From the IMG/VR virus record IMGVR_UViG_3300037346_000668, positions 1-64,000 of that record: a stretch of DNA of 64,000 bases. One strand, given 5' to 3'. A model generated the notes under the pieces. The model was not told the DNA's origin. It ran no database searches and was given only the letters and a program-made list of their open reading frames with translations. How positions within the stretch are numbered: the stretch's first letter is position 1; each line of letters opens with the position of its first letter. Below are positions 1,991 to 36,727 of the stretch, piece after piece. Source of the DNA: a virus. Position numbers and translations under genes: made by a program.

Positions 1991-3466
1991 TTATTTATTT
2001 TTATTTTTAAATTTTATTCCTGCATGAGGATTACCTTTTGCATTTTTTAAGCTAAATTTATTTTCCGGATTTTTAGTTACTACAAAAGCTTGATCTGCAT
2101 TAACAGATAATCCAGCTCTTCTCATAAATTCACGATTTACTAAAAATGGTGTGCTCTTATCTGTTCTATCATCAGGAGAAATCCTTACCTTTGGTATCAA
2201 AATCCCATTAAATTCAACATCAAGTTCTATAATAGGTCTTTTATGTTTTTTGGTTCCAATTTCAGCCTCAGAATGGTCAACTATTGGATCTATAAACTTT
2301 TTACCGCCTAGAGTCCAGTGAACCTTTCCACCTTTTTCCTCAACTTTATCTGCATGTAATGTACATGATTTAGATCCATTGCCAGTGTCAAATTTTGATA
2401 TAATTTCGCCAATTTTAGATATGCTTAATGTTTCTAGATACCCAACTTCCATATTAGAATAGCTCCAGCTATTTTTATCCAATATATAATCGATAACATC
2501 ATCAACAATAGGTTTACCTATTGCTTTTGATATACCTTCCGTTCCTGGAGACGAGTTAACCTCTAGTATATATGGCTTTTTAGTTTTTGCATCTATCATT
2601 ATATCAACTCCACACCAGTGACAACCAACAGCATTAGCTGCTTTTATTGCTATGTCGGAAAGCTCCTTAGTTATCTTAAATTTATTTACTGTTCCACCCA
2701 GTGAGTAATTAGTTCTAAAATCTTTTTTAACAGCTCCTCTTTTCATAGTTCCAAGTATAAAGGAATTATTATTGGCAACTTTTCTTGGATCTGGATTGAA
2801 TTTTTTGATAATCACCTGTATTCTAAGATCATAATTGGAATCAATTTTTTCCTGTATTAATATCTCGTTGGCTGAATCAAGTTTTCTTATTGTTTGATAA
2901 ACAGATTTAAGAGATGCGTATGAATCTATTATAGAAACTCCGATTCCCTGTGTTCCCGAAAGAAGTTTCATTATAACAGGAAATTTCCCACCTACCGCTT
3001 CCAATGCCCTATCCAGTGAATTTTCATCAGGTACTAATGCAGATTTAGGAACAGGAAGATTATTAGCTTCCATTATTTGTGATGTTATAAATTTGTTCTC
3101 GCAAGCTTCCATAGAAGCTATTGTATTAACGGTAAAATATCTGGCGGCTTCCAAGTTTAAAAGAATCTGTCTGGTGTGTGAATTTTCTAGTACACCTCTT
3201 CTTGGTATTATAACGGTGGAATTTGGATCTATTAATATTTTTTCCTTGCCAGTCTTAAGTAAATGTCCATTATATACTTTCTCAAGAACAACATCATTTA
3301 CATCTATTATATAGCATTTAATGCCTCTTTTTTTACATTCCTTTGTGAATGATTCTGAAGTTTTACTTCCTGTAACGTTACCAGTAAGAACCACAACCTT
3401 CGTTGTTTCAGTTTTAGCTTCATTAAGGAAGGAAGAAAAATCCAGCACATTGTTTGATATCATCAT
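1991..3466 (-). CDS. RimK-like ATP-grasp ligase fused to retropepsin-like protease domain, with targeting-type N-terminus
   Basis: A 491-residue fusion. Residues 23-330 form an ATP-grasp ligase of the RimK/glutathione-synthase type: a phosphate-binding loop KLLSGTQGIG (168-177), GVDIM near 286, and the Mg-binding LEVNSSPG (301-308). RimK adds glutamates to ribosomal protein S6 in bacteria. Residues 340-491 carry KFDTG (358-362) followed by SCTLHADKV, the layout of the small retropepsin-like RimB/ATP-dependent zinc-protease family that is often encoded next to RimK. The N-terminus (VLDFSSFLNEAKTE) fits a T4-like capsid-targeting peptide with a cut after Glu16. A GATATATA motif lies 19 nt upstream. 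It may modify and trim a host target soon after infection; the substrate is unknown. Confidence 0.8.
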   Translation of the reverse strand: MMISNNVLDFSSFLNEAKTETTKVVVLTGNVTGSKTSESFTKECKKRGIKCYIIDVNDVVLEKVYNGHLLKTGKEKILIDPNSTVIIPRRGVLENSHTRQILLNLEAARYFTVNTIASMEACENKFITSQIMEANNLPVPKSALVPDENSLDRALEAVGGKFPVIMKLLSGTQGIGVSIIDSYASLKSVYQTIRKLDSANEILIQEKIDSNYDLRIQVIIKKFNPDPRKVANNNSFILGTMKRGAVKKDFRTNYSLGGTVNKFKITKELSDIAIKAANAVGCHWCGVDIMIDAKTKKPYILEVNSSPGTEGISKAIGKPIVDDVIDYILDKNSWSYSNMEVGYLETLSISKIGEIISKFDTGNGSKSCTLHADKVEEKGGKVHWTLGGKKFIDPIVDHSEAEIGTKKHKRPIIELDVEFNGILIPKVRISPDDRTDKSTPFLVNREFMRRAGLSVNADQAFVVTKNPENKFSLKNAKGNPHAGIKFKNKNK

Positions 3467-3485
3467 TCTTGATTATTTTATTATG

Positions 3486-3493
3486 TATATATC
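3486..3493 (-). promoter_or_regulatory. GATATATA motif upstream of the ATP-grasp fusion
   Basis: On the minus strand the octamer GATATATA ends 19 nt before the start codon of the ligase-protease fusion. Candidate late promoter by recurrence. Confidence 0.45.
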
Positions 3494-3511
3494 TCAATGT
3501 TAGTAGTAATT

Positions 3512-3700
3512 CTAAACAGAACCTAATGGCAATTCGCATTTTTTACACCAATCATATCCTCCATCGCCTAAATTTGGTGGATATACTTCTTTGTCTTCAC
3601 ATTTACAAGTGATGAAATTAGTTTCAAAGTCAAAAGCACTACTACTAACATCGGTTTTGTTCAATTCCTCGTTTTCGGTAATAACAAATTCTGTTTTCAT
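3512..3700 (-). CDS. small putative zinc-binding protein, 62 aa
   Basis: Unrecognised. The C-terminal half has CKCEDKEVYP and then WCKKCELPLG, two Cys pairs (CxC and CxxC) about 20 residues apart that could hold one zinc ion. It lies upstream of the ATP-grasp fusion gene on the same strand and is separated from it by the GATATATA-containing spacer. Confidence 0.6.
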   Translation of the reverse strand: MKTEFVITENEELNKTDVSSSAFDFETNFITCKCEDKEVYPPNLGDGGYDWCKKCELPLGSV

Positions 3701-3774
3701 AATTACTTTATTTTAAGTTAAAAGTCTAGTTTTCAAAAGTCGGCACTAAACAAAGCCTATAAACGATAATACAA

Positions 3775-4044
3775 TTATATAAGATCAGATGCGCTACATT
3801 CTATATATTTTTTGAGAAGTATCATATTACTTATGTTCCAAAGATCATCATATATTACCATATGATCCTCAAGAATGAAAAAATCCATTAGCTCACTAAT
3901 TCTATCGATCTTTTCATCCTCAGACATTGTTCTATCCCTAAGATATTCCATCCTATTATTAATTATATAATCGGCTTCTTCTATCAGAAGGATAGCATAA
4001 TCAGCAAAATCCTCAGAATCAAGATTATCAAAAAATGAATTCAT
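3775..4044 (-). CDS. hypothetical acidic protein, 89 aa
   Basis: An acidic, helix-rich small protein of unknown function. Its start lies 1 nt from the stop of the polymerase C-terminal half, so it is probably translated from the same message. No motifs recognised. Confidence 0.6.
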   Translation of the reverse strand: MNSFFDNLDSEDFADYAILLIEEADYIINNRMEYLRDRTMSEDEKIDRISELMDFFILEDHMVIYDDLWNISNMILLKKYIECSASDLI

Positions 4045-4045
4045 A

Positions 4046-5200
4046 TTAAAATAAAGCGTTAACCATAAATAGATTTGGACTTATCTGATTGTATCCCATT
4101 ACCTCAATGAACCTATTTATTGGATCAAGAATTGTTTTCGTGAATTGCTCATCATAGTCCAACGGGGGAGCAAATTCATAGGGAAATGTCCCCTGTGGGT
4201 AAGCAAAGATGTTACTATCATTAATATTTTTAGTTTTAACAAAATATAAATTTACTTTGTCACCCGCTCTGATAAGGGAATATTTTGTTTTATATGTTGA
4301 ATTATTTAAAAGGTAGTTATGATAGCCAGATGCTCTAACGTGTATAGGACATGCCTTAGCAACTTCAAATCCGGTAGTATCATTTAATATCTTATCATAA
4401 TTATTAATATTTATTGATGCGGATATGTTTTGTGGCTCCTGTAATTTGAATTCCCTCTTTATTGATTTTAATTCCTTCACAAATTCCCTTATGTCAAAGG
4501 CCCTACCTTTAGTAAAAATAAGCTTCGTTAGATATACCAATTTTTCTCTAACAAAAGGAGGTGTTCCGCCCTTTATCATCTCAACTCCGGTAAATTTAAG
4601 TTGGGTCAGAGGTTCCATATGTAGTCCTGAATCGTAAACGAGATTTGCTACATATTTTTTCTTTCCAAGAAATATAGCATTTATAGCAAGTGTTTCTAGC
4701 TCAAAATCCTGATAGTTTTCGGTTCCCCATTTTTTTGAATAGATATCAAAGCATTTTCTAAGATAATCATTTAATCTATATTCGTTTATTTTTATGATGA
4801 GATCCTTGGCATCCCCTGCATAATCGCAGGAGTCAACAACTTCCTGAAAAGTAACATAATTAGAATCGGTATCACCATAAACAACCAGAGGATTAGTTAC
4901 CCTTTTAACGTGTTTCAATCCTAGCTTCTCATGAAGCTCTGTGTCGAGATGCCAATGTTCATGAAAATATTTATGCAATATCTTCTCAGAATATTTAATA
5001 AGATCCTGACCCTGCAGAGTTACTGCTTCAGCAACATCCGGGTTGAAGCAAACAAAGTAGTTATTTCCGATAGCTCCATAGATAGAGTTCATTGTTAATT
5101 TTACTGCTTGCTCCTCATTCTTATATTCATTCTTAAGAGCGGTAAGTCTCTCTATTTTTTCTTCAATCCCTTTAATTTCTTCCTGTGTCATTAATATCAT
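4046..5200 (-). CDS. family B DNA polymerase, C-terminal half (split gp43-like)
   Basis: This 384-residue protein carries only the back half of a family B polymerase. Motif B, KLTMNSIYG, is at 34-42; motif C, YGDTD, at 108-112; a KKY motif and the thumb region follow. Exonuclease motifs and motif A are absent here but present in the separate gene at 21257-22663. The first 33 residues are a charged helix that would be one of the two antiparallel helices of the fingers domain, so the break falls near the fingertip. All catalytic motifs survive across the two proteins, whose summed length (852 aa) is close to T4 gp43 (898 aa). A working two-chain replicase is likely. Start ATG at 5200; a second Met lies at residue 4. 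Confidence 0.9.
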   Translation of the reverse strand: MILMTQEEIKGIEEKIERLTALKNEYKNEEQAVKLTMNSIYGAIGNNYFVCFNPDVAEAVTLQGQDLIKYSEKILHKYFHEHWHLDTELHEKLGLKHVKRVTNPLVVYGDTDSNYVTFQEVVDSCDYAGDAKDLIIKINEYRLNDYLRKCFDIYSKKWGTENYQDFELETLAINAIFLGKKKYVANLVYDSGLHMEPLTQLKFTGVEMIKGGTPPFVREKLVYLTKLIFTKGRAFDIREFVKELKSIKREFKLQEPQNISASININNYDKILNDTTGFEVAKACPIHVRASGYHNYLLNNSTYKTKYSLIRAGDKVNLYFVKTKNINDSNIFAYPQGTFPYEFAPPLDYDEQFTKTILDPINRFIEVMGYNQISPNLFMVNALF

Positions 5201-5306: not shown

Positions 5307-6959
5307 ATGAATATAGATAATTTCATAGGAAATAATGGAAATGTTTCTTCAGCAAAAACAACAGAAAAATACGTTAAAAAACATTTTGTTGAGGAATACA
5401 TAAAAATAGATGAACATGCAAACAGAATAGGACTCACTAATTGCATATACTCGGAAAAAATATATCATTATCTAAATGATCTGAAAGAAGTTGTTGCCTG
5501 TAGAAATTGCAAAATCGTAAAGACGAAATTTAAGGGGCTCGTTCGGGGATACCAAGATTATTGCAGTTCCATCTGTTCGAATTCTTCAGACGAGGTTAAA
5601 AAATTAAAGGAAGCCTCATATATTGATAAATTCGGAGTAAATAATCCATCCAAATCAGAGGAAATAATTCAAAAAATTCAAAAAACCTTCGATGAAAAAT
5701 ACGGTGGAAATCCATTTACACTAGATTCGTTTAAAACGAAAATCAAGGCTACCAATATTTTAAAATACTCAGCTGAGTATCCGATGCAGAAAAATAGCAC
5801 ACTCAGAAAATCAATCGACGAGAAAAATATAAAAAAAGCAATTTTTAAGTATAAGGAGCTTAAAATTATAGGCATTGAAAGTAAAAAATACGGAGACGTA
5901 AAAATAGAATGTGATAAATGCAATTCGATTTTTACTATAAGCAAATGGAATCTTCATCAGAGAACAAATAGCAAATTAAACCAATCACCTTGTACAATAT
6001 GTTACCCAATAGGTGATAAGCAAAATTCAATGCAAGAAAGATTCATAGAAAAATTACTAATTGATAATAACATTCCCTACAAAAAAGGAGATAGAAAAAT
6101 ACTTAAAGGTACTGAAATTGATTTCTATATAGAAAAATATAGAATAGGAATAGAAATAGATGGTCTATATTGGCACTCTGATAAATTTAAGGATAACGAA
6201 TATCACCTAAGAAAAACGGAAGAAAGTAAAGAATCAAATATAAATCTAATTCATATTTTTGAAGATGAGATAAACAATAAGCCCAATATTGTTTCATCCA
6301 GGCTTCTATCAATATTTGGAAAATATGAAAATACTATATTTGCCAGAAAATGTAAAATAATCCCGCTAAACAGCAAGGATAGCAACGATTTTTTGGATAA
6401 AAATCACATGCAAGGTAAATGTGGGGCTTCCTTCAGATATGGTCTCGAATACAATGGCGAATTAATTTCAGTAATGACCTTTGGAGAATTAAGGAAAAAT
6501 CTTGGTAATAAGAAAGAAGAGGGATCTTACGAACTTATTAGATTCTGTACAAAAACTAATACAAGTGTAATAGGTGGAGCTTCTAAATTATTGAAACATT
6601 TCATCAATAAAAATTCACCAAAAAAAATAATATCATATTGTGACAGAAGATGGTCTAATGGTGAATTTTACGAAAAAATAGGATTCAATACTGATCATGT
6701 AACAAAACCAAACTACTGGTACACTAAAAATGGATTTAGAGAAAATAGGTTTAAATACAGAAAAGACATTCTAGTAAAAGAAGGATATGATACAAACAAA
6801 ACAGAATCCTCAATCATGAAAGATAGAGGATTCCTAAGAATATATGACTGCGGAAGTTATAAATATACTATGCAGCCCTCTTATTTTTCAACTAACCCTA
6901 TTGCTATTGATGTTGCTGACTGCTCAGAAAATAGAACTAGCCTATTATCATGTACATAA
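5307..6959 (+). CDS. VSR-like (EDxHD-type) homing endonuclease
   Basis: A 550-residue free-standing endonuclease on the strand opposite to its neighbours. The N-terminal part holds Cys pairs (ACRNCK, YCSSICS, ECDKCN) and repeated Lys-rich segments that probably bind DNA. Residues 270-330 hold the restriction-like fold TEIDFYIEKYRIGIEIDG, YWHS and LIHIFEDE typical of Vsr-related phage homing enzymes. A C-terminal domain (GASFRYGLEYNGELISVM, CDRRWSNGEFYEKIGF) is the conserved companion domain of such proteins. It sits between the polymerase C-terminal half and the clamp gene. The last 26 codons overlap the clamp gene antisense, as if the insertion abuts it. Confidence 0.85.
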   Translation: MNIDNFIGNNGNVSSAKTTEKYVKKHFVEEYIKIDEHANRIGLTNCIYSEKIYHYLNDLKEVVACRNCKIVKTKFKGLVRGYQDYCSSICSNSSDEVKKLKEASYIDKFGVNNPSKSEEIIQKIQKTFDEKYGGNPFTLDSFKTKIKATNILKYSAEYPMQKNSTLRKSIDEKNIKKAIFKYKELKIIGIESKKYGDVKIECDKCNSIFTISKWNLHQRTNSKLNQSPCTICYPIGDKQNSMQERFIEKLLIDNNIPYKKGDRKILKGTEIDFYIEKYRIGIEIDGLYWHSDKFKDNEYHLRKTEESKESNINLIHIFEDEINNKPNIVSSRLLSIFGKYENTIFARKCKIIPLNSKDSNDFLDKNHMQGKCGASFRYGLEYNGELISVMTFGELRKNLGNKKEEGSYELIRFCTKTNTSVIGGASKLLKHFINKNSPKKIISYCDRRWSNGEFYEKIGFNTDHVTKPNYWYTKNGFRENRFKYRKDILVKEGYDTNKTESSIMKDRGFLRIYDCGSYKYTMQPSYFSTNPIAIDVADCSENRTSLLSCT

Positions 6960-14009: not shown

Positions 14010-14543
14010 TTAAGAATAAAATACTTCTTCTATTTGTCTAGGTTCAATAAATGTAGAAAAATAAGCAACTGACTCAGGTGTTGCAAAAGCTTCTTTTTTC
14101 TTGGAAACGGGAAGACCTATGATAAAATCAACGCCATCCAGATTGGTAATACCAGTAACTATATACTCGCTATCTATGAAAAGATTTCTACCTTCACCAC
14201 CATAGATATTATCCCCAGGAGCTACATCAGCAGCTTCTACTCTGCTTCCTCTTATGCTATGTTGCTCTTTTTCTATTCTTTTTCTTTCGATATCAAGCGT
14301 ATCAAGAACATGTTGAGGAGCTTTTTTCCCCTGCATCGGAAGATCAACAGTCATTGTTATTTCCTGGACCTGGCCAGTTTTTTGCTGATCTAAAAGGTCG
14401 CTTATATAAGAGAATATTTTTGTAGTAGATACCTCATCCTCCGGTTCAGCAGAAGGGCTCCTTCTAAAATCATCCATATTATAGACAGGAACTCCAGATT
14501 CGTTCAAACCCTCATAGGATTCAAATTCTAAAAGATGTTTCAT
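14010..14543 (-). CDS. hypothetical protein with capsid-targeting-type N-terminus, 177 aa
   Basis: Unknown function. It begins MKHLLEFESYEGLNES, one of the shared N-terminal peptides; a T4-type cut would fall after Glu15. The rest is soluble, with a helical middle and a beta-rich C-terminal part. It is a single-gene transcription unit, with a GATATATA motif 17 nt upstream and a strong terminator directly downstream. Probably a late, virion-internal protein by inference. Confidence 0.75.
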   Translation of the reverse strand: MKHLLEFESYEGLNESGVPVYNMDDFRRSPSAEPEDEVSTTKIFSYISDLLDQQKTGQVQEITMTVDLPMQGKKAPQHVLDTLDIERKRIEKEQHSIRGSRVEAADVAPGDNIYGGEGRNLFIDSEYIVTGITNLDGVDFIIGLPVSKKKEAFATPESVAYFSTFIEPRQIEEVFYS

Positions 14544-15854: not shown

Positions 15855-16508
15855 TTATAGTTTAGTTACTAGTTTTGCTCCTCTTTTTTTAGAGATTTTT
15901 ATGCATTCAACCTCGCCCACAAGATCAAAGATTATCGATGCCTTATATTTATCATCAAGTTCCCTTGTTATTCCTCTTTTATTTCTGGATATATTTATTA
16001 GTGGTATTTCATACTTATTAAAAATTCCATCCTCGAATATCCATACCTTTATATTGAAATACTTATTCTCATATAATGAGTAATCGATCGGACCAATTTT
16101 TGGCGATATTCTACACTCAAATATATGCTTACCCTTAAAATTAAATTCAAGGAATATTAAATTATCATCATAAGGCGATGATAATATATTTCTACCAAAA
16201 TTAACACAATAGACCATTTTTTTAGCATCAAGCTCTAGAACTTTATACTCTAATTCATTGCTGGTTAGTATCGAATTTATATGGACAGGTATAGAATCAC
16301 TCTCACAATATAATCCTAAAAAACAATTCAATTCACCGGAATCAAATTTTTTCTGATTCCTAACCTCTATTTCACCATCTTTGGATAACATTAAAGAAAA
16401 ATAATCCAGGGAATCATGGAGTAGATTCCTCTGGATTATTTCTATATTTTTCTGTTGTGTTACTTTTTCCTTTATTGATTTTACAAAGTCCTCACTAGAT
16501 TTTTTCAT
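15855..16508 (-). CDS. hypothetical protein, 217 aa
   Basis: Unrecognised. A helical N-terminal 50 residues precede a beta-rich remainder. The start overlaps the adenylate kinase stop by 14 bp, so it is co-transcribed and probably translationally coupled to that gene. No signal peptide or membrane segment. Confidence 0.65.
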   Translation of the reverse strand: MKKSSEDFVKSIKEKVTQQKNIEIIQRNLLHDSLDYFSLMLSKDGEIEVRNQKKFDSGELNCFLGLYCESDSIPVHINSILTSNELEYKVLELDAKKMVYCVNFGRNILSSPYDDNLIFLEFNFKGKHIFECRISPKIGPIDYSLYENKYFNIKVWIFEDGIFNKYEIPLINISRNKRGITRELDDKYKASIIFDLVGEVECIKISKKRGAKLVTKL

Positions 16509-17163
16509 CTTTTTTCTTTTTAACTTCTTTAAGCCCGAGTTTTTTTACTATCGCTTTAAGAACCCCTTCCATCCCCAGATCGGCATCAATTTTTATTAAT
16601 TTTCTGCTTTTCTTATAAAAATCAACTAATGGAAACGTTTTCTCGTTATATTCAGCGAATCTTTTATCTATAACCTCATCACTAGCATCATCCTTTCTAC
16701 CTTCCTTCTTAGCTCTATTTCTTATTCTTTCCTTTGCTTTCTCTTCAGGAAGATCCATAAATATTGCGTGATTTAGACCAAGGCCAAGTTTGCCGAGTAG
16801 GGAATCCAATTTTCTAGCTTGTTTTATTGTTCTTGGATATCCGTCAAATATTATACCCTTATTAAGATCCAATTTTTTCATCTCTTTTCTTAACATCTTA
16901 AGCATCATAACATCAGATATGAATTTTCCTTCCTCTATAATCTTTTTTAAATCAGGATCGTCGGATTTTCTGATTAAATCTCCAGTAGAGATATGATTTA
17001 TACCAAATTTATCATTTAATTGTTTTGATAATGTTCCCTTACCAGATCCGGGTGCTCCTAGCATCACCAGAACATCACCTTGTGAATCTGGTAGCTCTCT
17101 TTCATTTAAAAATTCATCAAATTTTTTAATGACATCATCAGTAAACAGCTTCTTATTATTCAT
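16495..17163 (-). CDS. adk: adenylate/nucleoside monophosphate kinase with N-terminal targeting-type extension
   Basis: A 222-residue kinase. The P-loop GAPGSGKGT begins near residue 36, followed by STGDLIR, FDGYPRT and a short LID region (RAKKEGRKDD). It converts AMP or another NMP plus ATP to diphosphates and fits beside the ribonucleotide reductase genes. Unusually, about 29 residues precede the kinase fold, including FDEFLNEREL, the F-x-x-F-L-N-E pattern of the putative capsid-targeting peptides. The kinase may therefore be packaged, or the peptide has another role. The downstream gene overlaps by 14 bp. Confidence 0.88.
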   Translation of the reverse strand: MNNKKLFTDDVIKKFDEFLNERELPDSQGDVLVMLGAPGSGKGTLSKQLNDKFGINHISTGDLIRKSDDPDLKKIIEEGKFISDVMMLKMLRKEMKKLDLNKGIIFDGYPRTIKQARKLDSLLGKLGLGLNHAIFMDLPEEKAKERIRNRAKKEGRKDDASDEVIDKRFAEYNEKTFPLVDFYKKSRKLIKIDADLGMEGVLKAIVKKLGLKEVKKKKDEKI

Positions 17164-22732: not shown

Positions 22733-23038
22733 ATGAAAAATTTACAAAAATTCAAAGGTTTCGTTAATGAATGGATCGACTCTCCGGGAAGCGTTGATGT
22801 CCCTGGCCAATCATACGAGACAAAGGTAAACAGGAGAAACTACCAAAGTGCTGATCCAACAATGCCAGAAACAATAGACGCAATGTACGAGTCTTCATAT
22901 TTCCACGACTTCCTAGATGATGCGGGAAGATCTGAGGAATTCAATAAATTCATAGGCGAAGATAAAAAATCGGGGTCAGATATAACTGAATATTTAAAGA
23001 TTTCGTTTCAAGAAAAAAACTCAAAAAAGAAAGAATAA
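22733..23038 (+). CDS. hypothetical protein with capsid-targeting-type N-terminus, 101 aa
   Basis: Unknown function. Starts MKNLQKFKGFVNEWID, fitting the shared peptide with Glu at position 13. The body is hydrophilic with no recognisable domain. First of two plus-strand genes, each with such an N-terminus, separated by 8 nt and preceded by a GATATATA motif. Likely a late virion-internal protein by inference. Confidence 0.75.
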   Translation: MKNLQKFKGFVNEWIDSPGSVDVPGQSYETKVNRRNYQSADPTMPETIDAMYESSYFHDFLDDAGRSEEFNKFIGEDKKSGSDITEYLKISFQEKNSKKKE

Positions 23039-23046
23039 CGGAGAAC

Positions 23047-24012
23047 ATGCAAAATTTTAAAGGGTGGATCAACGAGGCAAGATTGTCAATAAAAGTTGAT
23101 GTAGAGGAGCTAGAAAAAATATATACACCAGAAAACATAGTATTTCCTAACATATTATCAAAATATTTTAATAATATCAGAATAGAGGAAATAAAAAAAG
23201 AATGCTCTAAGTTACTTACAGAGGAGTATGATACTAGGCTAAATGAGAAACTTAAATGGCTAAAATTTTCAGATAAAATAGCAACAGGATATCCAATTAT
23301 GGAGGCACATTTTAGATTCATGGGTAAATTTTATCCATTAAATGTTGACATACCCGCGGATTTAAAATCTAATCAACCATCAAAGGAGGGTAATCAAATA
23401 TACATTCCTATAATTGAAAATATAGCCAGAACGATAAAGATATTCAAGGACGAGGAATCACACGAGGAAATAAACAAATCCATAGAATTTCATGCTGGTA
23501 TAAATAAGGTGAAATATGACGAGGAAAAACTTAAATATGTCGTAACAAAACCTAATGATGATTATGGCTACCGAATAGTTATACAAACCGACGGAACTGT
23601 TTTAACTGAAGAGGAGTCAAAAAAAATACCAAAAGACAAAACTTCAGCATTTGAAGACTCAAAGATACAAAGCTATAATCTAAAAAAAGGTAAGCCTATA
23701 AGATTTACATCAAAACTTGGAAGCGATGGGTTTGTTACAGGAAAGGTATTCAGAATAATTAATAAGAAGTTCAAAAAATTTGGAAGAACAGACAATTGGG
23801 CTATATTCGACGATCATATAGAAATGGATCTTGAGTTTGAAAGAGACGGAAAAACAATGAAGATCCACAAGATGTTCAAACCTAATGATATAATATACCT
23901 GCCATTAGGTGAGGATAAGAAATTTGTAAAGTGCGAGGTTCAAAAGCCCTTCTACGTTTCAAATCCAGTACTTAAGGAACCAATAAATCTAAGGATCAAA
24001 GTTCTAAAATAA
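23047..24012 (+). CDS. hypothetical protein with capsid-targeting-type N-terminus, 321 aa
   Basis: Starts MQNFKGWINEARLS, the closest match here to T4 IPIII (MKTYQEFIAEA), with Glu10 before Ala. The remainder is Lys-rich: a helical region to about residue 90, then a beta-rich region. No family recognised. Second gene of the plus-strand pair. It converges on the MBD4-like glycosylase gene with a 9-bp overlap of the two 3' ends. Confidence 0.75.
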   Translation: MQNFKGWINEARLSIKVDVEELEKIYTPENIVFPNILSKYFNNIRIEEIKKECSKLLTEEYDTRLNEKLKWLKFSDKIATGYPIMEAHFRFMGKFYPLNVDIPADLKSNQPSKEGNQIYIPIIENIARTIKIFKDEESHEEINKSIEFHAGINKVKYDEEKLKYVVTKPNDDYGYRIVIQTDGTVLTEEESKKIPKDKTSAFEDSKIQSYNLKKGKPIRFTSKLGSDGFVTGKVFRIINKKFKKFGRTDNWAIFDDHIEMDLEFERDGKTMKIHKMFKPNDIIYLPLGEDKKFVKCEVQKPFYVSNPVLKEPINLRIKVLK

Positions 24013-27040: not shown

Positions 27041-27586
27041 TTATCTGCTTATAATTAATGATTTTTCATCCGTACCGTTCTGGACTGCCCAATTTTTACC
27101 AAGTTCTGATATACAAATAGACTTCATATATTCTATATATTCACCCTTTCCTTTATATTCAAGATTGTCCTGGAGCTCGTCATATATTCTTATCACCTTT
27201 GGATTAAGGGAAAGATAATCGAGCACACATCTGAATATGTATTCCATTAAGCGGGAAAGCTCGTTACCATCAACCAGGAATTTACTTTCATCAGGAGATG
27301 GTATATCCTCTTTATTAATAGCGATATCCTCTATAACCTCGTGACCTATTTGATTTATATTAAGTACACAATATGAATTTTTGGCTCCCTCTATAGCTTC
27401 ATTCTCAGAATACTTCCCTATTATAAGATGGTATCCCATTTCTTCCTCCCCGTCCTCGCTATCCAATGTGAAAAAATAATGATGAACATCACTAACTTTC
27501 TTCATTAAAAAGGACGAAGTCCCAAATCCATCATTTTCATTTATCGGATTAGTAAATTGCTCAAATGATTCAATAAACTTTTTCAT
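27041..27586 (-). CDS. hypothetical protein with targeting-type N-terminus, 181 aa
   Basis: Begins MKKFIESFEQFTNPINENDGF, with the F-x-x-F core followed by N-E (Glu17). The rest is a soluble alpha/beta domain (HYFFTLDSEDGEEEMGYHLI...) with no recognised family. One nt from the stop of the ligase-NMNAT fusion, as last gene of the operon 31134 to 27041. Confidence 0.7.
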   Translation of the reverse strand: MKKFIESFEQFTNPINENDGFGTSSFLMKKVSDVHHYFFTLDSEDGEEEMGYHLIIGKYSENEAIEGAKNSYCVLNINQIGHEVIEDIAINKEDIPSPDESKFLVDGNELSRLMEYIFRCVLDYLSLNPKVIRIYDELQDNLEYKGKGEYIEYMKSICISELGKNWAVQNGTDEKSLIISR

Positions 27587-27587
27587 T

Positions 27588-29627
27588 CTATTCTTGATTA
27601 TTTTTTTCTATATTCTGAAAAATTTCACATTCGGCTATAAGATCAGAATCTACAAAAGTAAGATCTTGATTCTCTTTAATACCTGTTCCTCTCTGTGAAT
27701 CTATCAATGAATTATAAACATTTGCAACCGCTTGTGGCACAAGTTTTTTAAATCCAGTATAGTCTTCAGAATCTATTTTTTTCCTAATGTCACTTCCACT
27801 GGAAGATCTCTTAGTTTGAATTATTTTTATATCATCAGGAAAATCCCCTCCTGCTTTCTTAAGGTATTCAACTTGCTTATTATAATCCTCTATCCTATCA
27901 TCACCAGCACCTATTACTTTAGGAAGAAATCCATATTCCTTAGCCTTTCCGTAAATAGGACCAAGTAATCCCCGATTAACTATAAAATAACCAGATATTT
28001 TACCAGGATTATCTCTAACTATTCCTTCCATATATCTCGATATTAATTTTTCATCATATGGTGATTTGCCAGATTTGTTATGTCCATGATGGACAACAGC
28101 TATTATGCTAGGAAGATCGTTTTCCTTATATAATTGATCAACCATCTTAAGGTGGCCATTATGGAAAGGCTGGAATCTACCAACTAATAAATTAACAGGC
28201 TCCAATTTTTTTACGTCATCGGAAGAGTCCTCTTTTATTTCCTTTGTCTTATCTTTCTTTGTGGTATCTATAGTTTCTAATGTTGATATAAACTCATTAT
28301 AGGAATAGAACGGATCGTCAACATCATCAGAGGTGTCATCCAAATTTTCGGATTCAACTGTAACATAATCTATTTTCTTCGAGGATATATTACTTTTCTT
28401 AAAATCCATGAAAGATGGGATAGATTCGGATTCTTGTATAGCTGGCTTAATCTCCTTGGCAACAACACCCTCTATATCACTTACCACTATATTAAATTGA
28501 TCTATTATACCAGCAGTTATTATTCCGCTAGCTCTTTTTCTTATTTTTCTAAATGAGTTAAGCATAAGCTTAAAAAGTGATTCATAAGAATCATCGGTAT
28601 CCAAATACTTAAGTACTCTTTTATCCTTTATCATGTTCAAATTCAATCTGAACTCATCCTTTTTTAAATAATCAGGTTCCTGAAAATCAGCACCTCTATA
28701 TTTATATGCGTATTCTCCAAGGAATTTAACAAAAACGTCGGACATGAAGGAGATATATCTTTCATCGTCGCTATCACCGGCAACGTTAAATGACTCAACA
28801 CCTTCCTCGAGAATATAATTCATTATATCCATTATAGTTAGACCCAGAAAATCGCTAGGCTTTTCCTCAGATCTTTTACTATATTTCTCCTTGGCCATCT
28901 CAGTAAAAACTGGATCAACCATTTTGGATAATATTGGTTCCTTACCATTATCTTCCTCACCAAATCTAAAAACTATTCCTTCTATCGGCTTATCAAGGTC
29001 ATTGTTAAGTGCACTTGTTTTTGAGGAAGGATTAAGAACACCTATTATGTACCTAACAAAGCTCTTTGTCTTATACTCAGCAACCAGCTGATCGAATGGT
29101 GTTCTTAGAAAATCCAATATTTGATTCTTCTGATCATCAGTTAGCATGCCCTGAAATACTATAGGTGGTCTTTCGACACCCAGAAGATCCGCCCAATTAT
29201 TTAATTGTTCCTGATCCTGTATTGTTGATGAGGGGCTTCCGTTTTCGTTCTTTGTATGGATATATGATAATATTAGATTATTCTTAGGTAATCTATCATA
29301 AGCAATCTCAACCGGTTGGTTGTTTGAAAAATACTCAAGACCAAATCTCCAACCCCTAGGTATATCATTAAGAATATGTGGTGGGAGTGACTCTATATAG
29401 TTTATCGGCTTTTCGTAATATTTCATAAGAGTACGATCAACAAGAGTTATTGGGTATCTTTGATCTCTTTTATAAAAATTAAATCTACCAGTTTCAGGGT
29501 CTCTTTCAAAAACAAAAGCAGAGCCATCCATTTTTTCATTAATGGTCACATAAGAGTTAAAGAGATTATCAATAAAATCTTTACCTTTTTTGTTATAAAT
29601 ATCATATAAATGACTAATTCCTGCCAT
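27588..29627 (-). CDS. RNA/DNA-ligase-like domain fused to NMN adenylyltransferase-type nucleotidyltransferase
   Basis: A 679-residue fusion. The N-terminal domain has the covalent nucleotidyltransferase motifs: motif I EKMDGSAF (Lys32 as adenylation site), WRFGLEYF as motif IIIa-like, PIEGIVFRF as motif IV and SKMVDP as motif V-like. A long helical and acidic middle (about 250-475) contains SFMDFKKSN and SYNEFIST, internal echoes of the targeting peptide. The C-terminal 197 residues have GRFQPFHNGH (483-492) and SSSGSDIRKKI, the signature of HxGH nucleotidyltransferases of the NadM/NadR group. It may ligate nucleic acid and make NAD or a related dinucleotide. It lies between a nucleotidyltransferase gene and a tagged unknown. 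Confidence 0.82.
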   Translation of the reverse strand: MAGISHLYDIYNKKGKDFIDNLFNSYVTINEKMDGSAFVFERDPETGRFNFYKRDQRYPITLVDRTLMKYYEKPINYIESLPPHILNDIPRGWRFGLEYFSNNQPVEIAYDRLPKNNLILSYIHTKNENGSPSSTIQDQEQLNNWADLLGVERPPIVFQGMLTDDQKNQILDFLRTPFDQLVAEYKTKSFVRYIIGVLNPSSKTSALNNDLDKPIEGIVFRFGEEDNGKEPILSKMVDPVFTEMAKEKYSKRSEEKPSDFLGLTIMDIMNYILEEGVESFNVAGDSDDERYISFMSDVFVKFLGEYAYKYRGADFQEPDYLKKDEFRLNLNMIKDKRVLKYLDTDDSYESLFKLMLNSFRKIRKRASGIITAGIIDQFNIVVSDIEGVVAKEIKPAIQESESIPSFMDFKKSNISSKKIDYVTVESENLDDTSDDVDDPFYSYNEFISTLETIDTTKKDKTKEIKEDSSDDVKKLEPVNLLVGRFQPFHNGHLKMVDQLYKENDLPSIIAVVHHGHNKSGKSPYDEKLISRYMEGIVRDNPGKISGYFIVNRGLLGPIYGKAKEYGFLPKVIGAGDDRIEDYNKQVEYLKKAGGDFPDDIKIIQTKRSSSGSDIRKKIDSEDYTGFKKLVPQAVANVYNSLIDSQRGTGIKENQDLTFVDSDLIAECEIFQNIEKNNQE

Positions 29628-29650
29628 AAGTAGCTTTTTTTTAATGTTTA

Positions 29651-30583
29651 TTATTGTATTCTATTAATCTCAGTAGGTATTTCTAGTCCAACCCTTTGCA
29701 AAAATTCCAAAAATCTTTCCTTTATTTCTGGTAACTTATCACTTAATTCGAAATCTGACGACATTATTACAGAAAACAGTTGTTCAAAGGTTTTAACATC
29801 GTCTATATTATAACCAGGGCCTAGTGCAAAATTAATAAATTCCTGAGGATTATTAGTAACAAATCTCTCACTTCCTTCTATTTTTTTAGGATTTTTCAAT
29901 CTATCTTTGATTTTTCCCCTGTATGATTTTGTATGCCAATATAAACCATCACTTAAAATAAGGACTGGTGTATTATAATCTAATACCTCGCCTGTATCAC
30001 CAAGCTCAATTATTTCCTTTCTTGAAGATAATATGGCTGCTAATAGCCAATTTCTATGAGCTGATTTATATTTGCTTTCCCTTATTTTGTAATTTGGTGA
30101 ATAGTATATAAAATCTGCCCATTTCATATCTGATAGAGGTATAAGATCAAGCTGAACTATACCTTTATCTATATTACCATCTATTGGCCACCCAATACTA
30201 ACTATATTAAGTCCCTTCAAATAATTTATTTCAGGTCGGAACCCTATAATATCACCAAGATCATTTTTTATCTTATCGTATATAAATCCAGAGCATTCCT
30301 TCATTGTTATGCCATTAGTGTCAGAATACCATTTAGCATCATAGCCAATATCAAGATCACCAGAGGTATCATCAGGATTTTCTTTTTTTCCTATACTTCC
30401 TATTATCACATATTGATCATTGATTCTCGATTGATCTATACCAAGAATCGGAAAAAGCTTTTCTTTTATCGATAATAGGGTTCCTGGAAATTCATCCTCA
30501 CGTATTCGTCTAGATGTTTTTATTGCGGATCCTCCCTCAAACAAGGCTTTAAAATTAGAAAAATTAAGGATACCATTACCCAT
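29651..30583 (-). CDS. pol-beta-fold nucleotidyltransferase with targeting-type N-terminus
   Basis: A 310-residue protein. IIGSIGKKENPDDTSGDLDIGY has the G-S...D-x-D layout of the pol-beta nucleotidyltransferase superfamily, and GIVQLDLIPLSD supplies the third carboxylate. Relatives add nucleotides to RNA, small molecules or proteins; which applies here is unclear. The N-terminus GILNFSNFKALFEGGS fits a capsid-targeting peptide cut after Glu16 before Gly. It shares one base with the stop of the gene upstream, so they are translationally coupled. Confidence 0.72.
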   Translation of the reverse strand: MGNGILNFSNFKALFEGGSAIKTSRRIREDEFPGTLLSIKEKLFPILGIDQSRINDQYVIIGSIGKKENPDDTSGDLDIGYDAKWYSDTNGITMKECSGFIYDKIKNDLGDIIGFRPEINYLKGLNIVSIGWPIDGNIDKGIVQLDLIPLSDMKWADFIYYSPNYKIRESKYKSAHRNWLLAAILSSRKEIIELGDTGEVLDYNTPVLILSDGLYWHTKSYRGKIKDRLKNPKKIEGSERFVTNNPQEFINFALGPGYNIDDVKTFEQLFSVIMSSDFELSDKLPEIKERFLEFLQRVGLEIPTEINRIQ

Positions 30584-31134
30584 TATGCTCTCTTTTTTGT
30601 TTTTTTATAGTAGGTACCCATTATATCTTTAAGATAATCCCTATAAATTTCTTGCTCCTTATCCTTAGGGTTCTGTGGGGTAAAATCATCACCGAAGTAT
30701 TTTTTACCTCTAAGGACACCCGATTTATAAAATTCCTCAGCATCACCATCAGTAACTCTTCTATTTTCTATATGCTCACCCTCCCACTTTTTGATTATCT
30801 CATCTTTTCTTCTCTTTATCTCTTCCTTATCAAGATCCTTCCACGATTTAGTTTCTTCGCCTGGCGAAAGAAAATCTATAAAAGCAGCAGCTCCCTTAGT
30901 AAGTCCCTTAACTGCTAAACCTATAACGCTAGAAGCACTCTTTATGGTTGACATATTAGGGTCAGCGTCTGTATAATAACTACTATATCCGCCGTCTCCA
31001 ATACCTATATTATTTCCTATTCTTCTAAGCCATCTCGAGAATGAAGTTTTACCCTCCGCTTCGAGATAGTCAGAATTGCGATAGGATTCCTGAATTTTAT
31101 AATTATTAAATTCATCAAAAGATTTTATTGTCAT
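30583..31134 (-). CDS. hypothetical protein with targeting-type N-terminus, 183 aa
   Basis: First gene of the operon that encodes the nucleotidyltransferase and ligase-NMNAT fusion. Begins MTIKSFDEFNNYKIQESYRN, with SFDEF and Glu16. A short Gly/Ala-rich hydrophobic helix (SSVIGLAVKGLTKGAAAFI, about 66-84) could touch a membrane, which would suit a protein ejected with DNA. The C-terminal part is charged and helical. Unknown function. Confidence 0.7.
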   Translation of the reverse strand: MTIKSFDEFNNYKIQESYRNSDYLEAEGKTSFSRWLRRIGNNIGIGDGGYSSYYTDADPNMSTIKSASSVIGLAVKGLTKGAAAFIDFLSPGEETKSWKDLDKEEIKRRKDEIIKKWEGEHIENRRVTDGDAEEFYKSGVLRGKKYFGDDFTPQNPKDKEQEIYRDYLKDIMGTYYKKTKKRA

Positions 31135-31152: not shown

Positions 31153-31160
31153 TATATATC
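31153..31160 (-). promoter_or_regulatory. GATATATA motif heading the ligase/nucleotidyltransferase operon
   Basis: Minus-strand octamer ending 18 nt before the start at 31134. The four genes that follow are spaced by 23 nt or less, so this may drive all of them. Confidence 0.5.
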
Positions 31161-36490: not shown

Positions 36491-36727
36491 TTACTGGTTA
36501 ATATCCTGTTTTTGTCCGGTCGAACCGGTTGTTCCGTAAACCTTAGCTAGTTTACTAAAGCATGACTTAACCTGCTCTTCACTAAGACAATCTATAATAT
36601 CATCTAAAACTCTTCTATCGTTACCACAAGCAGCAATTAATAGATTTTTCATATGATCTTTTTCACTATATAGTGGTTGTCCGTATTTTGCCTCGTTTAC
36701 CTCTTTTAAATTTGAGAATGTTTTCAT
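36491..36727 (-). CDS. hypothetical protein with targeting-type N-terminus, 78 aa
   Basis: Begins MKTFSNLKEVNEAKYGQP; E-V-N-E|A is an ideal T4-type prohead protease site. The rest has a helical pattern (NLLIAACGNDRRVLDDII) and no known domain. Its GATATATA motif abuts the stop codon of the neighbouring tail gene, making it a separate late unit. Confidence 0.7.
   Translation of the reverse strand: MKTFSNLKEVNEAKYGQPLYSEKDHMKNLLIAACGNDRRVLDDIIDCLSEEQVKSCFSKLAKVYGTTGSTGQKQDINQ

Follow-up and report, generated by a model that had tools for sequence, protein, structure and literature searches.

Organization of the Locus

The cluster described here lies on the minus strand of the window, the whole 64,000-nucleotide stretch of viral DNA that was analyzed, whose source contig is 82,935 bp long (an approximately 83-kb fragment of a giant phage genome). 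It comprises four ORFs at 27041–31134, gA, polB, a ligase-HIGH fusion, and gD (Table 1), flanked by uvsW on one side and a run of small genes on the other. The genes are closely packed: gA runs 1 nt into polB, 23 nt separate polB from ligase-HIGH, and 1 nt separates ligase-HIGH from gD. The ORF coordinates and the octamer GATATATA upstream of gA agree with the arrangement given in the initial annotation, that of four tightly spaced genes behind a single motif. With 13 copies observed in the window and 10.4 expected, GATATATA was ruled out as an over-abundant octamer and its enrichment is positional only; it is the top upstream-enriched octamer of the 82,935-bp contig, where 14 of its 17 copies have a same-strand ORF beginning within the next 80 nt, compared with 7% when every permutation of the octamer is counted. 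It is read from its sequence context as a putative late-type promoter element.

Table 1. Features of the four-gene cluster and their positions in the window
Feature	Position	Strand	Basis
Late-promoter-like motif GATATATA	31153..31160	-	26 nt upstream of gA
gA, 183 aa, N-terminal tag, protein without assigned function	30583..31134	-	ORF
gA predicted capsid-targeting propeptide MTIKSFDEFNNYKIQE, cut before S	31087..31134	-	Orthologue N-termini
polB, 310 aa, divergent pol-beta-superfamily nucleotidyltransferase (probable)	29651..30583	-	Invariant residues, AlphaFold, fold matches
polB predicted propeptide MGNGILNFSNFKALFE, cut before GG	30536..30583	-	Orthologue N-termini, MGG homologues
Ligase-HIGH fusion, 679 aa	27588..29627	-	ORF, Pfam, predicted folds
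RNA-ligase-type (KxDG nucleotidyltransferase) domain, aa 1–392; K32, E98, E216-G217, K235	28452..29627	-	Foldseek, alignment
KMDG motif I (Lys32), aa 32–35	29523..29534	-	Sequence
Disordered linker, aa 393–475	28203..28451	-	pLDDT < 50 at 395–403 and 413–472
Internal tag-like motif ESESIPSFMDF, aa 399–409	28401..28433	-	E399, F406, F409 invariant, 33 sequences
HIGH-superfamily (NMNAT-like) nucleotidyltransferase domain, aa 476–646	27690..28202	-	Foldseek, sequence match
GRFQPFHNGH motif, aa 483–492	28152..28181	-	Sequence
gD, 181 aa, N-terminal tag, protein without assigned function	27041..27586	-	ORF
gD predicted propeptide MKKFIESFEQFTNPINE, cut before (N/S)DGFG	27536..27586	-	Orthologue N-termini

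Searches with gA gave no significant match in Pfam, NCBIfam, or PADLOC, and gD matched nothing in the named phages. No useful match to the known defence families of PADLOC was obtained for the cluster products, and no tRNA genes were found in the window or in the other stretches scanned.

A protein search of IMG/VR identified 78 loci on contigs of up to 434 kb, and the order gp32-primase-uvsW-gA-polB-ligase/HIGH-gD is held in most of them; the gene set, which the initial annotation had proposed to look for in other phages, is therefore conserved. When polB was used as the basis of the search, 80 loci were returned with ligase-HIGH as the next gene in 78, and the remaining two contigs stop 14–16 nt past polB, such that the two genes are adjacent in 78 of 78 cases where the contig continues. 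Variations on the order were observed downstream of the fusion. Two loci (L063, 8037–11518, and L065, 8028–11569) carry a tagged metallopeptidase-like gene (DUF2201), a VWA-like gene, and a tagged AAA/MoxR-like gene between ligase-HIGH and gD, and a third, from a phage without polB, has a metallophosphoesterase-like gene in the same place (L054, 7979–9481; PF12850, 5e-4, below the cut-off). A single 855-amino acid ORF at 6001–8568 of L019 joins ligase-HIGH to gD, which may be a genuine fusion or come from an error in the sequence.

The Ligase-HIGH Fusion

The AlphaFold model of ligase-HIGH contains two confident domains separated by a disordered linker (approximately residues 395–472). The N-terminal domain matched T4 Rnl2 (2hvr/1s68, Foldseek probability 1.00) and other RNA ligases, and has an Rnl2-like fold with motifs I, III, IV, and V all present. 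The C-terminal domain matched an archaeal NMNAT (1f9a, TM 0.72) and has a HIGH fold with GxFxPxHxGH and SxxxxR motifs; its sequence match is the NMNAT of M. thermautotrophicus (E 1.2e-4). Both motifs that the initial annotation had placed in one chain, KxDG and GRFQPFHNGH, are present as described, and the structure prediction that it proposed for each domain returned an RNA-ligase-2-like and an archaeal-NMNAT-like fold.

PF01467 matched ligase-HIGH above its cut-off (25.4 bits, cut-off 21), and PF09414 (RNA_ligase) fell just under (24.7 bits, cut-off 27), reaching 27 bits in relative G003 when neighbouring frame segments were included. The curated NMNAT cut-offs were missed by a wide margin (28.3 versus 181.2 for TIGR01527 and 35.1 versus 127 for PRK01153.1). 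Further, stronger RNA_ligase matches are encoded elsewhere in the genomes of the jumbo relatives, and the ligase of the cluster is therefore not their sole one.

The polB Nucleotidyltransferase

The GS...GDxD...D set of polB (Ser63, Asp76, Asp78, and Asp146) is invariant in 32 of 32 sequences. The AlphaFold model has a pLDDT of 90.4 with residues 1–17 disordered, and at least 11 of its 12 best PDB matches belong to the pol-beta superfamily (CutA, TdT, poly(A) polymerase, and ILF2/3), all of them weak (E of at least 0.0095, E-values as printed). The pol-beta triad recognized in the initial annotation is upheld by these results, and polB is probably a divergent pol-beta-superfamily nucleotidyltransferase, with which the GS-x(n)-DxD-x(n)-D pattern and the predicted fold are consistent though the matches are weak.

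No Pfam, NCBIfam, or profile match was found for polB, which is thus not detectably a CCA-adding enzyme, a type mentioned in the initial annotation. RlaP was likewise ruled out, with no match to the profile PF10127 in G000–G009, X1, or Marzo and an hhalign probability of 0.1% against one Lak RlaP sequence. Profile comparison (hhalign, values as printed) did link polB to Lak proteins (99.8%) and to proteins of Rhizobiales phages (98.9%), and linked the latter in turn to proteins of X1, Marzo, and phiKT1024 (91.6%); the direct comparison of polB with this last group is weak (32%). A cellular source was rejected after 84,980 cellular genomes were scanned with polB and yielded no relative.

The Same Enzymes in Unrelated Large Phages

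The ligase, the HIGH nucleotidyltransferase, and polB are found again in large phages unrelated to this one, in some as fusions and in others as separate genes. In X1 and Marzo, polB, a gene without assigned function, the ligase, and HIGH lie in a row, unfused and with a baseplate hub gene nearby. Vibrio phage phiKT1024 has polB followed four genes further by a ligase-HIGH fusion with a degenerate HIGH motif, and Microcystis phage Mel-JY01 has the fusion in the reverse order, HIGH-ligase. The ligase and polB adjoin in Phosso and Atu_ph07, being CDS 65–66 in the latter (numbering checked against the MCP, 215, and the portal, 198). These two fall inside a cluster rich in products detected by mass spectrometry (CDS 31–76), of which 29 were found in virions, a figure for the cluster as a whole (PMC6102473). 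Downstream of polB in the same phage is a run of genes with tag-like starts, M[RK]WxQLxE or similar (L094, 7591–12523).

Phage RNA ligases accompany another pol-beta family, RlaP, in a described RNA-repair pairing (PMC7824862). Because a ligase together with a nucleotide-restoring pol-beta enzyme corresponds to this pairing, repair of RNA is the preferred function of the cluster, and RNA is a more likely substrate than DNA. The alternative, in which polB and the ligase would form a minimal end-joining pair that is packaged in the head and repairs the entering DNA at restriction or CRISPR breaks or at genome ends, has several observations on its side: the best fold matches of polB include TdT, a DNA polymerase X; the adjoining genes uvsW, primase, and gp32 serve replication and recombination; and genes that appear PD-(D/E)xK-like by eye lie between polB and the ligase in X1 and Marzo and after the fusion in L033. 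This last assignment has no family match behind it, however, and the fold matches on the ligase side that reach E ≤ 0.001 are all RNA ligases or a tRNA ligase, with no DNA ligase among them, such that repair of DNA is considered unlikely.

The HIGH domain raises a second alternative, also part of the initial annotation, in which it is a true NMNAT that acts with a phage NadV to rebuild NAD depleted by host defence, the linkage to the ligase being secondary. The fold and motifs speak for it, the nearest solved relatives being archaeal NMNATs by both sequence and structure. A point against it, treated as a lead only, is that the tryptophan stacking against nicotinamide in archaeal NMNAT aligns with a residue other than Trp in the HIGH domain. 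Also against NAD restoration, canonical NadV and NadM/NadR genes are located elsewhere in X1, Marzo, and Ps15, NadV is absent from the cluster in every locus read, and the HIGH domain travels with the ligase and polB. The position of NadV elsewhere in the records checked weakens NAD synthesis as a function, and what probability it keeps comes from three relatives (G001, G002, and G005) that have an NAPRTase (NadV) and no other PF01467 protein. Even here, the NadV gene of G005 adjoins a gene that is Prs-like by eye, an arrangement resembling NARP1, and such a NadV-Prs arrangement would not require an NMNAT (PMC12774641). NAD restoration is thus the weaker branch of the earlier proposal and appears improbable as the main role.

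Conservation and Loss of the Active Sites

Lys32, Glu98, Glu216-Gly217, Lys235, His489, His492, and Arg615 of the fusion are intact in 28 of 28 aligned main-clade sequences. An outgroup clade of five loci (L060, L062, L065, L068, and L099) retains ligase-HIGH with substituted active sites, where Lys32 is replaced by Asn, Glu98 by Ala, Val, or Gln, Glu216-Gly217 by Asp-Ser, and His489 by Asn or Thr. The initial annotation had named inactive catalytic residues in homologues as evidence against its reading; such residues occur in this clade and in none of the 28 main-clade sequences. Judged by these substitutions, the clade shows that the fusion can apparently persist without catalysis. Beside its Asn-for-Lys fusion, L099 encodes a second ligase-like protein (KLDG; 3267–4532) with the tag MKFLKSYEEFLNENLILE before GG.

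No polB was found in those loci of the outgroup clade and the L053 group whose ORFs were read. A strict rule of joint loss of polB, ligase, and HIGH activity was nevertheless rejected, being broken by L018, which has no polB and intact ligase and HIGH motifs, and by L053, which keeps the ligase residues including Lys32 and has lost the HIGH histidines.

A structural or scaffold role, in which enzymes recruited as head-core components would have only incidental catalysis that is lost in some lineages, is made possible by the outgroup clade, with its substitutions at Lys32, Glu98, Glu216-Gly217, and His489, and by linker residues (Glu399, Phe406, and Phe409) that are invariant across 33 sequences including the outgroup, but is unlikely given that every catalytic residue checked is intact in all 28 aligned main-clade sequences, as selection on activity predicts.

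Predicted Capsid-targeting Sequences and Processing Sites

Three of the four proteins, gA, polB, and gD, begin with a targeting-type sequence of F-x-x-F followed by [LIVM]-x-E. Their orthologues share two aromatic residues three apart, [LIVM]-x-E, and then a conserved mature start (GGxA, SDGFG), and the stretch ahead of the Glu is variable in sequence and length. Scored on distinct orthologue N-termini as F-x-x-[FY] plus [LIVMF]xE, the tag and cleavage pattern is present in 36 of 36 for polB, 40 of 41 for gA, and 28 of 30 for gD, whereas nine families of neighbouring genes gave 0 of 299 and two other neighbours gave 2 of 24 and 1 of 23. The N terminus of the ligase matched the pattern in 9 of 35 cases, which were discarded as catalytic sequence (INEKMDG).

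The polB site is the best defined. [LIVM]xE directly precedes GG in all 79 polB loci scored, with V or M in place of L/I in a minority; in addition to these, L210 has LFE followed by GG. Untagged homologues of polB (X1, Marzo, Atu_ph07, Phosso, and phiKT1024) begin with MGG, and in the profile alignment Gly17 of polB pairs with Gly2 of the Atu_ph07 protein. The predicted cut would expose GG, exactly where the untagged homologues start.

A related motif is found inside the fusion, where Glu399, Phe406, Phe409, and Phe446 of the linker are invariant in the 33 sequences. A matrix built on the tags scores residues 403–411 above every other internal site of the contig proteome, at 13.2 against shuffled-proteome maxima averaging 12.5, which alone is not significant; the case for a tag-like motif in the linker is made by its conservation and not by this score. 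The linker also has a cleavage-type Glu; neither this nor the tag-like motif appears in the initial annotation.

In T4, residues 4 and 7 are key to capsid targeting and gp21 cleaves after L/I-X-E (PMC9026906). The aromatics of the present tags have the same spacing as these two residues. A gp21-type protease (PF03420) is encoded in 9 of 12 long relative records and a T4-type major capsid protein (PF07068) in 8 of 8, approximately 2 kb from the protease; neither was found in the 83-kb contig, itself a genome fragment. As address tags of the head-packing type, the N-terminal sequences suggest that the products are probably injected along with the DNA.

Similar starts were seen at other genes of the window. 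An adenylate kinase (16495–17163, minus strand; PF00406, 2.8e-38) has the tag-like N terminus MNNKKLFTDDVIKKFDEFLNE and is possibly also head-packaged. A RimK-like ATP-grasp protein (1991–3466, minus strand; PF08443, 3e-34) carries the tag MMISNNVLDFSSFLNE with GATATATA 27 nt upstream of its gene, and tag-like N-termini are found on four products without assigned function (14010–14543 and 36491–36727, minus strand; 22733–23038 and 23047–24012, plus strand), three of which lie behind GATATATA.

A Proposed Head-packaged End-repair Kit

Taken together, these data are best read as a late-made, head-packaged, and protease-trimmed end-repair kit, a conclusion that we hold with moderate confidence. 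The late operon would produce a set of end-processing enzymes, which T4-type capsid-targeting sequences would bring into the prohead. There the phage gp21-type protease would trim them, leaving polB with its native Gly-Gly start, before injection with the genome; the linker sites could let the same protease split ligase-HIGH into two enzymes. In the newly infected cell, polB would restore missing nucleotides and the Rnl2-like ligase would rejoin strands that nucleases of the host defence had cut, with RNA or tRNA as the likeliest substrate. The HIGH enzyme may contribute an accessory nucleotidyl transfer, either from NMN to NAD or as an end modification. A more specific form of the proposal is advanced only tentatively, that the kit of terminal nucleotidyltransferase, ligase, and HIGH enzyme is virion-borne and activated by the protease, the internal tag and cleavage sites of the precursor splitting the fusion during head maturation, and that repair precedes phage gene expression.

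The injected or late RNA-repair kit of the initial annotation thus gains from the late-type motif, the tags, the folds, and the conservation of the gene set; packaging, cleavage, injection, RNA as the substrate, and the role of HIGH are inferred from these. Phage repair of tRNA cut by host defence is usually credited to enzymes made after infection. A kit packaged in the head would act from the first minute, which would explain why such enzymes lie behind a late-type promoter motif. No injected RNA-repair set was found named in the literature examined. More broadly, the recurrent linkage of a ligase, a HIGH enzyme, and a non-RlaP pol-beta protein marks out a pathway, as yet uncharacterised, that is shared by several large phages unrelated to one another.

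Comparison with Known Systems

The predicted processing resembles that of the T4 internal proteins (IPI–III and Alt), which have a short N-terminal propeptide with aromatics three apart, an L/I-x-E cut, and a gp21-type protease. The cargo differs, consisting here of ligase, pol-beta, and HIGH enzymes, and one of the tag-like motifs lies within a chain, in the stretch that joins its two enzyme domains. With the T4 Rnl2 family the ligase shares the fold, motif I KxDG, the Glu of motif III, the EG of motif IV, and the Lys of motif V; it differs in falling below the Pfam cut-off, in its C-terminal HIGH domain, and in having a clade where the active-site residues have been lost together. As with RlaP, large phages encode a pol-beta nucleotidyltransferase next to an RNA-ligase-type protein, but polB has no detectable sequence relation to RlaP and has its own conserved N terminus, GG-x-A-[IV].

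The HIGH domain has the fold and the GRFQPFHxGH and SG(T/S)-x-[IV]R motifs of archaeal NMNAT/NadM, from which it is set apart by its fusion to a ligase, its distance from NadV, and scores far under the equivalog cut-offs. It is also held in common with the phage 'cytidyltransferase' families phrog_3041/phrog_395 and phrog_27149, which are without assigned function, as is their polB partner in Vibrio phages (phrog_19290). In phiKT1024 (phrog_27149) and Mel-JY01, as in the present locus, the HIGH domain is fused to a KxDG ligase.
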